The notes below the pieces were generated by a model. That model searched no databases. It was given only the letters and a program-made list of their open reading frames with translations, and was not told where the DNA came from. A DNA stretch of 64,000 nt from Ornithinimicrobium humiphilum (lineage in GTDB: Bacteria > Actinomycetota > Actinomycetes > Actinomycetales > Dermatophilaceae), in NCBI RefSeq assembly GCF_006716885.1, contig NZ_VFPU01000001.1:868001-932000 (forward strand). The letters run 5' to 3'. Made by a program: the position numbers and the translations under genes. Below are positions 56,541 through 62,756 of the stretch, piece by piece (position 1 is the first letter of the stretch; each line of letters begins with the position of its first letter).

Positions 56541-59500
56541 TCAGGCCTCCAGGGCCGCGTCGACGATCTGCTGAGCCTCCGCCTGCACCTGCGCGAGGTG
56601 CTCGGGTCCGCGGAAGGACTCGGCGTAGATCTTGTAGACGTCCTCGGTGCCCGACGGCCGGGCGGCGAACCACGCCGACTCGGTCGTCACCTTCACGCCG
56701 CCGATGGCTGCGCCGTTGCCGGGCGCCTCGGTGAGGATGGCCGTGACCGGCTCGCCGGCGATGCTCTCGGCCGTGATGTCGGAGGCCGAGAGCTTCTTCA
56801 GGCGGTCCTTGGCGGCCCGGTCGGCCGGGGCGTCGATCCGGGCGTAGGCGGGGTCGCCGTGCTCGGCGACGAGCTCGGCATACCGCTGGCTGGGGGTCTG
56901 GCCCGTCCTCGCGATGATCTCCGCCGACAGGAGCGCCAGGAGGATGCCGTCCTTGTCGGTGCTCCACACCGAGCCGTCCCGGCACAGGAAGGAGGCGCCC
57001 GCGGACTCCTCACCGCCGAAGCCGATCGACCCGTCGAGCAGGCCGTCCACGAACCACTTGAAGCCCACCGGCACCTCGACCAGCTCGCGACCGAGCGAGG
57101 CGGCGACCCGGTCGATCATCGAGGAGGAGACCAGCGTCTTGCCGATCGCGGTGCTCGCCGGCCACTCGGGCCGGGCCCCGCCGAAGAGGTAGTCGATCGC
57201 CACGGCGAGGTAGTGGTTGGGGTTCATCAGCCCGCCGTCGGCGGTGACGATGCCGTGCCGGTCGGCGTCCGCGTCGTTGCCGACCGCGACGTCGTAGCCG
57301 GAGCCCTCGGCCATGGTCCCGATGAGGGAGGCCATGGCGTTGGGGGAGGAGCAGTCCATGCGGATCTTGCCGTCCCAGTCCAGGGTCATGAACTCCCAGG
57401 TCGGGTCGACCCGCGTGTTGACGACGGTGAGGTCGAGGTCGTAGTGGTCGGCGATCATCTGCCAGTAGTGCACGGCCGCGCCGCCGAGCGGGTCGGCGGC
57501 GATGCGCACGCCCGCCTCCCGGATCGCGTCGATGTCGATGACCCGGTCCAGGCCGAGGACGTACTCGGCCATGAAGTCGTAGAGCTCGGCGGAGGTCAGG
57601 GCCTCCTCGAACGGCACCCGCCGCACGCCCTCGAGGCCGGCGCGCATGAGCTCGTTGGCCCGGTCGGCGATCCAGCCGGTGGCGTCGGTGTCCGCCGGTC
57701 CGCCCGACGGCGGGTTGTACTTGAACCCGCCGTCGCGTGGCGGGTTGTGCGAGGGCGTGACGACGATCCCGTCGGCGGTCCCCTCTGTGCTCTCGATCTC
57801 GCGGTTGTGGGCGAGGATCGCCCGCGAGACCGCCGGGGTCGGGGTGTAGCTCTCCTCCCCACCCACGTCGACCCAGACGTCGACGCCGTTGGCGACGAGC
57901 ACCTCGAGGGCGCTGCGCCAGGCCGGCAGGGACAGCGCGTGGGTGTCCTTGCCGAGGAAGAGCGGCCCCTCGATGCCCTGGGCGGCGCGGTACTCGCAGA
58001 TCGCCTGGGTGGTCGCGAGGATGTGGTGCTCGTTGAACGAGCCGTCCAGGGAGCTGCCGCGGTGCCCGGAGGTGCCGAAGGCGACCTGCTGGTCGACGTC
58101 CTCCGGGTCGGGGACGATCTCGGTGTAGGCCCGCACGACGGCGTCGACGTCGATGAGGTCCTCCGGCCGCGCCGGGGTGCCGGCACGCGACGAACGCCCC
58201 GAGGTGTCGTCCTCGGTGGCCACGTCGGCGCCCTCCGCCGCGTCGGCGCCCCCGGCGTCCTCGACCGTCTCGCCGGCGACGACCGCGGTGGCCGCGTCGG
58301 CCTCCTCGACCTCGACCGGGTCCGGCACCAGCCACACCGCCGCCATCGGAGGCACGGTGACGAGCGCCGAGAACGGCTGCCGCTGGTGCTCGTGGTCGTA
58401 GGCCTGGACGTAGCCGAGGTTGCCCTGGCCGGAGCCGCCGTAGTGCTCGGCGTCGGTGTTGAGCACCTCGCGCCAACGGCCGCCGTAGGGCAGACCGGTG
58501 TGCACCCGCTCCTGGGTGGTTCCGCTGAAGTTGATGACGACCGCAACGACCGGACGCAGGCCGTCCGGGCCCTCGTTGCCCCAGCGCAGGTAGGAGAAGA
58601 CGTTGCGCGAGGCGTCGTCGGCGTCCAGCCACTGGAAGCCGTCCTCGTGGTGGTCGATCTGCCACAGCGCGGGCAGCTCGTCGTAGAGCCGGTTCAGGTC
58701 GCGGACGAGGTGCTGCACGCCGCGGTGCATCGGGTCCTCGGTGAGCTCCCACGACAGCGTGCCGCCGTCGGCCCACTCCTTGACCTGGGCGAACTCGGAG
58801 CCCATGAAGAGCAGCTGCTTGCCCGGGTGCGACCACTGGTAGGCGAGGAACGCCCGGGTCGTGGCGAACTTCTGCCAGGCGTCGCCGTACATCTTGCGCA
58901 CCAGCGAGCCCTTGCCGTGCACGACCTCGTCGTGGCTGATCGGCAGGATGTACTTCTCGCTGAACGCGTAGACCAGGGAGAAGGTCAGCGCGTTGTGGTG
59001 GTGGGCCCGGGCGTAGGGGGACTGCGCCAGGTAGTTGAGCGTGTCGTGCATCCAGCCCATGTTCCACTTGAAGCCGAAGCCCAGTCCGCCCTCGTCGGTC
59101 GGCGCGGTGACGCCCGGCCAGGAGGTCGACTCCTCGGCGATCATCACCACGCCCGGGTTGCGCCGGTATGCCGTGGCGTTGGTCTCCTGCAGCAGGGCCA
59201 CCGCCTCGAGGTTCTCCCGGCCGCCGTGGCGGTTGGGGATCCACTGGCCGGGCTCGCGCGAGTAGTCGAGGTAGAGCATCGACGCGACGCCGTCGACGCG
59301 CAGGCCGTCGGCGTGGAACTCCTCGAGCCAGTAGGTGGCGTTGGCGACGAGGAAGTTGCGCACCTGCGGGCGGCCGTAGTCGAAGATGTAGGACCCCCAC
59401 TCCGGGTGCCAGCCCTTGCGGGGGTCCGGGTGCTCGTAGATCGGGGTGCCGTCGAAGCGGGCCAGCGCCCACGGGTCGGTGGCGAAGTGGCCCGGGACCC

Positions 59501-62500: not shown

Positions 62501-62756
62501 TGACGGCGACGAGGGCGTCGGCCAGCGACTCCTCCGCCGCGGCGCGGTAGGTGAGCGGCACCTGGTAGACGATCTCCTCGTCCCCGGAGCGGTCGACGAC
62601 GAGGTGGCCCTCGAGGCCGACCTCGCCGGCGGGGTCCTCCCACCGGTAGCCGCCGACGCGCTCGAGCACGGGCACGTGGCCCTTGCCGCGGTACCAGCGC
62701 TGGCGGGCGACCCACGCGGGCAGGAAGTCGGCGGGACCGGGCGACAGGGATGCCAT
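56541..62756 (-). CDS. Three-domain fusion: maltokinase - glycogen branching enzyme GlgB - phosphoglucomutase
   Basis: One frame of 2071 codons with no stop. Residues 1-453: maltokinase, from FLPAWVARQRWYRGKG to LELDKALYEVVYEARNRPDW, with catalytic HGDLHLGQ (Asp323) and DFEGEP. Residues about 454-754: Pro/Ala/Gly/Asp-rich linker. About 755-1475: GlgB with its N-terminal HGLHRDPHRVLGAHPH, nucleophile Asp1155 in LRVDGVASM, Glu1208 in MIAEEST, and SHDEVVHGKGS. About 1476-1522: acidic linker. About 1523-2071: full-length phosphoglucomutase with active Ser1669 in TPSHNPP, metal loop GNDADADRHG, GEESAGASF and RPSGTEDVYK. Mak-GlgB fusions are, as I recall, known in Micrococcales; the added Pgm is not one I know. 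ATG overlaps the treS stop by one base. A GTG at 58223 with GGAGGG upstream could give separate Pgm. Confidence 0.9.
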   Translation of the reverse strand: MASLSPGPADFLPAWVARQRWYRGKGHVPVLERVGGYRWEDPAGEVGLEGHLVVDRSGDEEIVYQVPLTYRAAAEESLADALVAVTEHSELGTRYVYDAPHDPVFVQTLLEQVYAEGETDGTYGHRVIAGGSAPRLGASRVLRGEQSNTSVAVEPEGETRPVLVKIFRVLQPGENPDVTVPSAIAPLGNRMVPGPIGYLEGGWTQPDGSPADGHLAYVQEFLQDTRDAWQVALDAARAGEDLTEQAHALGVTTARVHASLRDAFGTVPADAATRTDLADRMRRRAEAAFAEVPELEAYRARVEDAYAALEELDTPPLQRVHGDLHLGQVLEVPRRGWVLLDFEGEPMRPLSERVAPDLALRDVAGMLRSFDYAAGSVELAGDGERREWAEAARAAYLEGWAAESGEDLDDPALRRVLDALELDKALYEVVYEARNRPDWTPIPVAAVQRLVGRPQGRHAAPGGNPPETGRPERSGRGGRHRAPEPEAAYTGMRSRGSSEAGTSGGIGFASPDADPGTQATAPADGPVPADFGVVDGPADGAGSLVDAEGVVRSEAAPEEGAARPVEDVPVPAAPAASDAHHVVGAPGSGAAATDVAGLASLPEDVAPSTGPSTGESEAGAPADRGAPHTPAPFTASGSRPHAPVPPPPEMVTAFGTVGAPGGPDSEPQPSVDRLAAEVRWDYPGASGSTPALGPDGRPVDPVVQRERAWSEALASPAVVTGSVLEDDEPAVPGTRATQVRRIPLTPPEEPPPPHTLPLDLDEATDVVHGLHRDPHRVLGAHPHEGHVTIRTVQPTAEAVAVQLADGTEVPMTEETGGIWVAVVQQEDVPDYRLAVSERGARRVVDDAYRYQPQIGELDLHLIGEGRHEELWKVLGSHVRTVRDELGEVTGTHFAVWAPNALAVHVIGDFNGWDGNAHAMHVHETVGVWEIFIPGVGAGAHYKYDITGPDGTRRAKADPMARATEVPPFNNSVVSVSTYEWNDREWMERRARTDVHHGPMSVYEVHLASWRQGLGYEELADQLVSYVAEMGFTHVELMPVMQHPYGPSWGYHVTGYYAADSRFGHEDGLRLLVDRLHQAGVGVILDWVPGHFATDPWALARFDGTPIYEHPDPRKGWHPEWGSYIFDYGRPQVRNFLVANATYWLEEFHADGLRVDGVASMLYLDYSREPGQWIPNRHGGRENLEAVALLQETNATAYRRNPGVVMIAEESTSWPGVTAPTDEGGLGFGFKWNMGWMHDTLNYLAQSPYARAHHHNALTFSLVYAFSEKYILPISHDEVVHGKGSLVRKMYGDAWQKFATTRAFLAYQWSHPGKQLLFMGSEFAQVKEWADGGTLSWELTEDPMHRGVQHLVRDLNRLYDELPALWQIDHHEDGFQWLDADDASRNVFSYLRWGNEGPDGLRPVVAVVINFSGTTQERVHTGLPYGGRWREVLNTDAEHYGGSGQGNLGYVQAYDHEHQRQPFSALVTVPPMAAVWLVPDPVEVEEADAATAVVAGETVEDAGGADAAEGADVATEDDTSGRSSRAGTPARPEDLIDVDAVVRAYTEIVPDPEDVDQQVAFGTSGHRGSSLDGSFNEHHILATTQAICEYRAAQGIEGPLFLGKDTHALSLPAWRSALEVLVANGVDVWVDVGGEESYTPTPAVSRAILAHNREIESTEGTADGIVVTPSHNPPRDGGFKYNPPSGGPADTDATGWIADRANELMRAGLEGVRRVPFEEALTSAELYDFMAEYVLGLDRVIDIDAIREAGVRIAADPLGGAAVHYWQMIADHYDLDLTVVNTRVDPTWEFMTLDWDGKIRMDCSSPNAMASLIGTMAEGSGYDVAVGNDADADRHGIVTADGGLMNPNHYLAVAIDYLFGGARPEWPASTAIGKTLVSSSMIDRVAASLGRELVEVPVGFKWFVDGLLDGSIGFGGEESAGASFLCRDGSVWSTDKDGILLALLSAEIIARTGQTPSQRYAELVAEHGDPAYARIDAPADRAAKDRLKKLSASDITAESIAGEPVTAILTEAPGNGAAIGGVKVTTESAWFAARPSGTEDVYKIYAESFRGPEHLAQVQAEAQQIVDAALEA

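Follow-up and report, generated by a model that had tools for sequence, protein, structure and literature searches.

Maltokinase (Mak) and the glycogen branching enzyme GlgB are already catalogued as a single chain in the NCBIfam model NF011293/PRK14705 ("1,4-alpha-glucan branching enzyme", 1224 positions). Fusions of trehalose synthase (TreS) with Mak are reported for Chlamydiae, Pseudomonas and others in two papers (PMC11046441, PMC7935935), the second of which also describes a GlgA-GlgB fusion of Waddliaceae and Criblamydiaceae that followed genome rearrangement. The mycobacterial TreS:Pep2 complex, as presented in PMC6509496, is non-covalent and weak (Kd 3.5 uM), assembles as 4+4 in the crystal, and apparently does not channel. 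Here we describe a gene of Ornithinimicrobium humiphilum, located in a 64,000-nucleotide stretch of contig NZ_VFPU01000001.1 (the window), in which Mak, GlgB and phosphoglucomutase (Pgm), three normally separate sugar-storage enzymes, make up one 2,071-residue product.

The Mak-then-GlgB order in a single chain is the same as in NF011293, but that model lacks Pgm and allows only some 50 positions for a linker, in contrast with the long first linker and the added Pgm found here; at 1359.9 bits against a cut-off of 2376, the protein is not a member of that family though its domain order is the same. Pgm is the new part. The Mak-then-GlgB layout accounted for most of the 120 matches listed from a search with the whole protein, in many actinobacterial genera, and is common there without Pgm. 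TreS-Mak fusions likewise join GlgE-pathway enzymes, but with a different partner, whereas TreS is here separate and its gene overlaps the fusion gene by one base. Homologous TreS and Mak associate in the TreS:Pep2 complex, which, unlike the fusion, is non-covalent and has no GlgB or Pgm attached. Finally, the branching domain of the chlamydial GlgA-GlgB fusion is described as seemingly non-functional or cut by a stop, while all domains of the present protein look intact and constrained at the sequence level.

The reading frame, its domains and linkers

The features of the locus are as follows.

56541..62756, minus strand: mak-glgB-pgm fusion gene, a continuous ATG..TGA frame also found in 10 other genomes
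61398..62756, minus strand: maltokinase domain (residues 1-453), with HGDLHLGQ, DFEGEP and KALYEVVYE motifs; 4u94 match
60495..61391, minus strand: linker 1 (residues about 456-754), rich in Pro/Ala/Glu/Gly, with a PHAPVPPPPEM motif
58323..60494, minus strand: GlgB, glycogen branching enzyme (residues 755-1478); TIGR01515, 3k1d match
58191..58322, minus strand: linker 2 (residues about 1479-1522), GlgB acidic-tail remnant, predicted disordered
58221..58223, minus strand: GTG in frame within linker 2, preceded at 8 nt by GGAGG; a candidate internal Pgm start, not conserved
56544..58190, minus strand: phosphoglucomutase domain (residues 1523-2071); TIGR01132, 9v68 match
62756..64000, minus strand: treS (trehalose synthase), extending past the window end; its TGA overlaps the fusion ATG by one base

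The frame runs on the minus strand from an ATG at 62756-62754 to a TGA at 56543-56541, comprising 2,071 codons with no internal stop, exactly where a preliminary description of the window had placed it; that description did not mention the strand and missed both the apparent parallel origins and the glgE-treS operon discussed below. The sequence AAGGAGG lies seven bases before the ATG, which shares one base with the treS stop at 62758-62756 (TGATG). An open frame of 2,296 codons on the plus strand (56310-63200) spans the entire gene and exceeds it in length. Since all homology is on the minus strand, the coding frame is the minus-strand one despite this longer antisense frame, which most likely results from the high GC together with codon-position bias.

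The Mak cap domain (Mak_N_cap, residues 15-102) scored 91 bits with PF18085, well over the cut-off of 22, and the alignment to a solved maltokinase covers residues 14-453. Matches to the kinase models APH and TIGR02457 stay under the respective cut-offs. By sequence, the nearest solved structure is the maltokinase 4u94 (203.9 bits), with which the active-site motifs align. The kinase motifs HGDxHLGQ and DFEGEP and the maltose-site motif KxxYExxYE, whose roles are taken from PMC4306142, were present in 28/28 Mak sequences examined. GlgB exceeds the TIGR01515 cut-off (867 bits versus 464) and is nearest to 3k1d (863 bits), again with aligned active-site motifs. Its CBM48 domain is accompanied by the GH13 motifs RVDxVASM, AEEST and SHDEVVHGK, which we take to hold the catalytic residues and which are found in 11/11 fused genomes. 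Pgm matches TIGR01132 at residues 1523-2069 with 881 bits against a cut-off of 778, its nearest solved structure being 9v68 (754 bits; active-site motifs aligned), and the motifs TPSHNP (presumably the phosphoserine loop), DxDxDRH (presumably the metal loop), GGEESAG and RPSGTED are intact in 11/11 fused genomes. All three domains are thus complete with catalytic motifs intact and are predicted to be active, in line with the earlier claim of three complete enzymes with key residues preserved.

Linker lengths of about 299-305 (linker 1) and 44-47 residues (linker 2), depending on the method, agree with the previously proposed disordered linkers of about 300 and 47 residues. In an AlphaFold model of residues 1376-2071, built from a shallow 29-row alignment so that domain contacts were not interpreted, the mean pLDDT was 77.7 but fell below 50 across most of linker 2 (model residues 109-144, corresponding to 1484-1519), consistent with predicted disorder. 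Measured in 27 genomes, linker 1 spans 221-309 residues in the clade of the fused species versus 29-110 outside it, about two- to tenfold the length seen elsewhere in the genus. In the sequences of 11 genomes, linker 1 also displays recurring motifs, SG..PHAP(V/I) and, closer to GlgB, SPAVVTG-like stretches; the recurring motif could possibly serve as a short binding motif.

Pairwise dN/dS values, obtained by a simple Nei-Gojobori count, were 0.07-0.22 for Pgm, 0.05-0.20 for GlgB and 0.16-0.49 for Mak in five fused pairs, and those of Pgm in three unfused pairs were similar (0.05-0.19), indicating at the level of coding sequence that all domains are under constraint.

Fused and unfused relatives

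The Pgm domain was sought, and its surroundings compared, in 31 genomes of the genus (Ornithinimicrobium, Serinicoccus, Ornithinicoccus), including that of the window. In 31/31, pgm lies directly downstream of glgB on the same strand. An uninterrupted Mak-to-Pgm frame of 1,991-2,072 codons, counted from the Mak match to the stop, is present in 11/31, several of which are single-contig genomes (G018, G019, G003, G029), while in 20/31 a stop stands between GlgB and a separate pgm directly downstream (the contigs of G022, G023 and G009 stop short of Mak). The preliminary description had held that separate pgm genes and a linker stop in relatives would speak against a fusion; the genus is split on this point, as the 20 unfused genomes show precisely this arrangement but the 11 fused ones also lack a pgm start codon, which implies that the fusion is derived and real rather than an error.

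This conclusion comes from the comparison of GlgB tails and junctions, which covers 30/31 genomes (G024 left out). In unfused species the GlgB stop is followed, after up to 79 bases or with an overlap, by an ATG or GTG and a MARHERAG-like start, whereas at the same place the fused species have GGRHPRAG, GRSSRAG or similar and a non-start codon. GlgB tails measure 89-171 residues in the eight unfused species belonging to the clade of the fused species and 5-52 residues in 11 more distant unfused species, and linker 2 is reduced to 24-46 residues in the 11 fused species, a loss of about 45-150 residues judged against sister species. Three elements are therefore missing in the fused species, namely the GlgB stop, the start codon of pgm and the greater part of the acidic, disordered tail, so loss of the stop alone was rejected as an origin. 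The fused condition was found in 0/11 short-tailed genomes and is limited to the long-tailed clade. Frame changes break GlgB, Mak or Pgm in three assemblies, G015 (L051), G024 (L064) and G013 (L063), and rpoB too in G015; these look like a matter of sequencing quality, not biology.

Trees were built without the frameshifted assemblies G015 and G024, and the rpoB tree also without G016. In 5/5 trees (concatenated, rpoB, Mak, GlgB, Pgm), the fused species form four pure groups with a Fitch count of 4: {G000, G017}, {G030}, {G018, G029} and {G019, G020, G003, G028, G004, G027}. The AU test, covering 20-21 of the 31 genomes, rejects monophyly of the fused genes for Mak (3e-33), GlgB (2.6e-5) and Pgm (1.7e-15). 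The large fused group joins the unfused pair (G011,G012) with support of 100, 100, 100, 91 and 91 over the five trees. Support for (G018,G029)+G008 is 97 in the concatenated tree, 97 with rpoB, 81 with Mak and 71 with GlgB, and that for (G000,G017)+(G001,G022) is 93 in the concatenated tree, 89 with Pgm, 51 with Mak (G022 absent) and 35 with GlgB. G030+G026 is supported at 95 (concatenated), 83 (rpoB) and 84 (GlgB) and is absent from the Mak and Pgm trees. In a tree with named proteins added, the large fused group has the unfused P0021 (S. marinus) as its sister (98), and {G029, G018} has the unfused P0018 (100). The fused P0005 (strain LYQ92) falls outside the other fused groups beside the unfused P0019, with support of only 52, and may represent a fifth, weakly supported origin.

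The tails of the unfused sisters are homologous to one another: G008 aligns with G011, G012 and G015 at z 12.9-13.3, G013 with G022 at 8.5 and G022 with G026 at 7.9, with 0/300 shuffles reaching the real score, and the stretch GST.ELA..EL...HPFV.EGGQPIDH is common to G008, G011, G012 and G015. When tails were set against fused linkers, z did not exceed 1.9 in eight comparisons. The simplest reading of these sequences would be an unfused, long-tailed ancestor within each half of the clade. Taken with the trees, we infer that Pgm was added in more than one event, in at least four separate groups, by parallel fusions.

Outside these genomes, a 5.8-billion-protein database was searched twice, each search scoring only the roughly 8,000 candidates that had the most words in common with the query. 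The whole protein matched 626 proteins at E 0.001, and among the 120 listed, P0003-P0007 are full-length three-domain proteins. The partial fusion protein P0008 has a linker 2 identical to that of G019 though labelled as an Arsenicicoccus metagenome-assembled genome (MAG). The search proposed earlier for the same domain order has thus recovered it in 10 further genomes and five full-length proteins. A second search with the Pgm part, limited to proteins of about 725-2,308 residues at E 1e-30, returned 107 long Pgm-bearing proteins, including six clear GlgB+Pgm cases (P0003-P0008), all from this genus. P0190 and P0191 combine an alpha-amylase domain with Pgm by Pfam columns; P0190 was rejected as a fusion because its Pgm part reads partly frameshifted. 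Neither search yielded a clear GlgB-Pgm fusion outside the genus, although some of the fused genomes were themselves missing from the matches. A family-wide search matched 180/186 genomes, and no frame of at least 1,600 codons was found outside the genus among the matches listed, frames of 1,000-1,501 codons not being followed up. The open-access matches listed contained no Mak-GlgB-Pgm protein in their titles or abstract openings. The earlier impression that Mak-GlgB is known elsewhere and the Pgm addition unusual is thus upheld, the former by its NCBIfam model and the latter by these searches, whose clear GlgB-Pgm cases all belong to this genus.

Other Pgm fusions in the database likewise combine Pgm with a glucan enzyme but have other partners and lineages, and many come from one contig only (Pfam columns). 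The partners are a phosphorylase (P0144, P0145), GlgA-like proteins (P0210-P0216) and MalQ (P0160, P0172), which suggests, from the Pfam columns alone, that Pgm joins glucan enzymes repeatedly. Adjacent glgB and pgm genes also occur in L066 (Leekyejoonella antrihumi) and L072 (a MAG labelled Helicobacter cetorum, a doubtful label), implying that the neighbourhood is wider than the genus; both were rejected as fusions, since a stop keeps glgB and pgm separate, the two genes either overlapping by a few bases or having about 9 bases between them.

Proposed function and competing explanations

The fusion follows treS (584 codons at full length), and glgE, identified by PF11896 and GLGE_C, both over cut-off, lies 9 bases upstream of treS beyond the window end; a divergent alpha-glucan phosphorylase gene (glgP) adjoins the cluster. 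The genome contains a single Mak cap domain, a single GlgB above the TIGR01515 cut-off and a single Pgm above the TIGR01132 cut-off, along with three further phosphohexomutase genes, namely a PMM/PGM that passes the NF007088 cut-off, GlmM, and a mutase of 562 residues that reaches the cut-off of none of the models listed. GlgC and GlgA_Coryne-type genes, the latter of which we take to be the family of GlgM, are adjacent about 1.9 Mb into contig 1, and OtsA had no match in the genome at E 0.001.

Glucose-1-phosphate made by Pgm leads into ADP-glucose and the GlgM reaction, and the phosphorylase releases it as well; neither Mak nor GlgB uses glucose-1-phosphate or glucose-6-phosphate. Because Pgm thus shares no intermediate with Mak or GlgB, direct channelling is unlikely, and the earlier suggestion that the protein ties the GlgE route to the glucose-1-phosphate pool does not hold in the sense of channelling. 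Channelling between domains was rejected as unsupported by the reactions, and the related TreS:Pep2 complex is also described as having no channel (PMC6509496).

We consider it probable that this genuine fusion was formed in parallel by in-frame deletion of the stretch separating mak-glgB from the neighbouring pgm, each event removing tail, stop and start and leaving a linker of 24-46 residues. The product would be one 2,071-residue polypeptide in which flexible linkers connect three active enzymes, and its translation would follow that of glgE and treS within a single operon. Substrate hand-over from domain to domain is not the proposed benefit; rather, the enzymes would be synthesized at a fixed 1:1:1 ratio and Pgm kept where glucan is made and degraded, with glgE upstream and glgP divergent. 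Co-synthesis and co-localisation are as much as the sequence can support. If TreS binds the Mak domain as in mycobacteria, GlgB and Pgm would come along. Given that sister species manage without it, the fusion appears to be tolerated or mildly favoured.

Several observations weigh against this account. The (G018,G029)+G008 grouping is absent from the Pgm tree, and (G000,G017)+(G001,G022) from the rpoB tree. The two tail families (G008, G011, G012, G015 versus G013, G001, G022, G026) show no match to one another (z 0.2-1.6, three comparisons), so tail homology supports an unfused ancestor within each clade half but not at the root. GRHP at the join recurs in 3/4 fused groups, and the junction could have spread by recombination, although THPRAG in three unfused outgroup species (G005, G023, G025) indicates that the P of GRHP arises elsewhere too. 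The PMM/PGM-type gene could provide some PGM activity elsewhere in the cell. Lastly, the Mak branch of the window is 0.323 versus 0.096 in its fused sister G017, about three times faster, and the window may have a Mak under relaxed constraint; the Mak dN/dS of 0.49 is that of the window versus G017, and the differences between the two are spread along the domain.

A serious rival, which we rate as somewhat short of an even chance, is that Pgm is a passenger, fused through neutral drift of adjacent genes with a disordered tail and without functional gain. This would be compatible with the structure proposed above and disputes only the benefit. Unfused sisters beside fused groups, the confinement of fusions to the long-tailed clade and the lack of an intermediate common to Pgm and Mak or GlgB are all consistent with it, but the fusion occurs separately four or five times within a single genus and two database searches gave no clear case in other taxa, which speaks against it.

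We regard it as improbable that one ancestral fusion was later broken in several lineages, or that a short junction spread by recombination, even though GRHPRAG is common to 3/4 fused groups and these are interleaved with unfused ones in the tree. Re-splitting would require a regained stop, start codon and homologous tail in several lineages; in each clade half the unfused sisters have tails homologous to one another, and fused groups have unfused sisters in P0021 and P0018. On the concatenated tree, one gain plus losses takes five steps, counted by hand, versus four gains (Fitch minimum 4). Whole-gene transfer of a fused allele is unsupported, as all three gene trees keep the fused groups apart, but transfer of about 100 bases is compatible with them.

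It also seems unlikely that Pgm is made alone in addition, by initiation at the GTG at 58223 or by cleavage of linker 2. The window has GGAGG 8 nt ahead of this GTG, and long disordered linkers are generally protease-prone, but linker 2 lacks an in-frame start codon in 6/11 fused species, and a start codon with a Shine-Dalgarno (SD)-like match at 5-10 nt occurs in only 2/11 (G000, G018), a count that excludes GTG codons about ten residues into Pgm that follow an SD-like match at 5 nt (G029, G017). Start codons in linker 2 are not conserved, and a genus-wide conserved internal Pgm start was rejected.

That a sequencing or assembly error fused two genes is negligibly probable and was rejected, since, despite the high GC and the frameshifts in relatives' assemblies G015 and G024, the same frame recurs in 10 further genomes and five full-length database proteins, some of the same species, and stop, start and tail are missing together.

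A more speculative extension of the parallel, gap-deletion account, which we doubt, is that Pgm is a hidden partner of the GlgE complex, tethered in unfused species by the acidic tail of GlgB, and that selection made this tether covalent at least four or five times. The fused products are named GlgB only (P0003-P0007) or hypothetical protein (P0008) at NCBI, so a search by name would overlook the Pgm of these genomes. Fusion that seems to have recurred at the same junction within a single genus, and only with a long disordered GlgB tail, offers a clean case of selected versus permitted enzyme fusion, and the natural series of fused and unfused sisters would make it possible to measure what changes when an enzyme of glucose-phosphate entry is linked covalently to the GlgE route.

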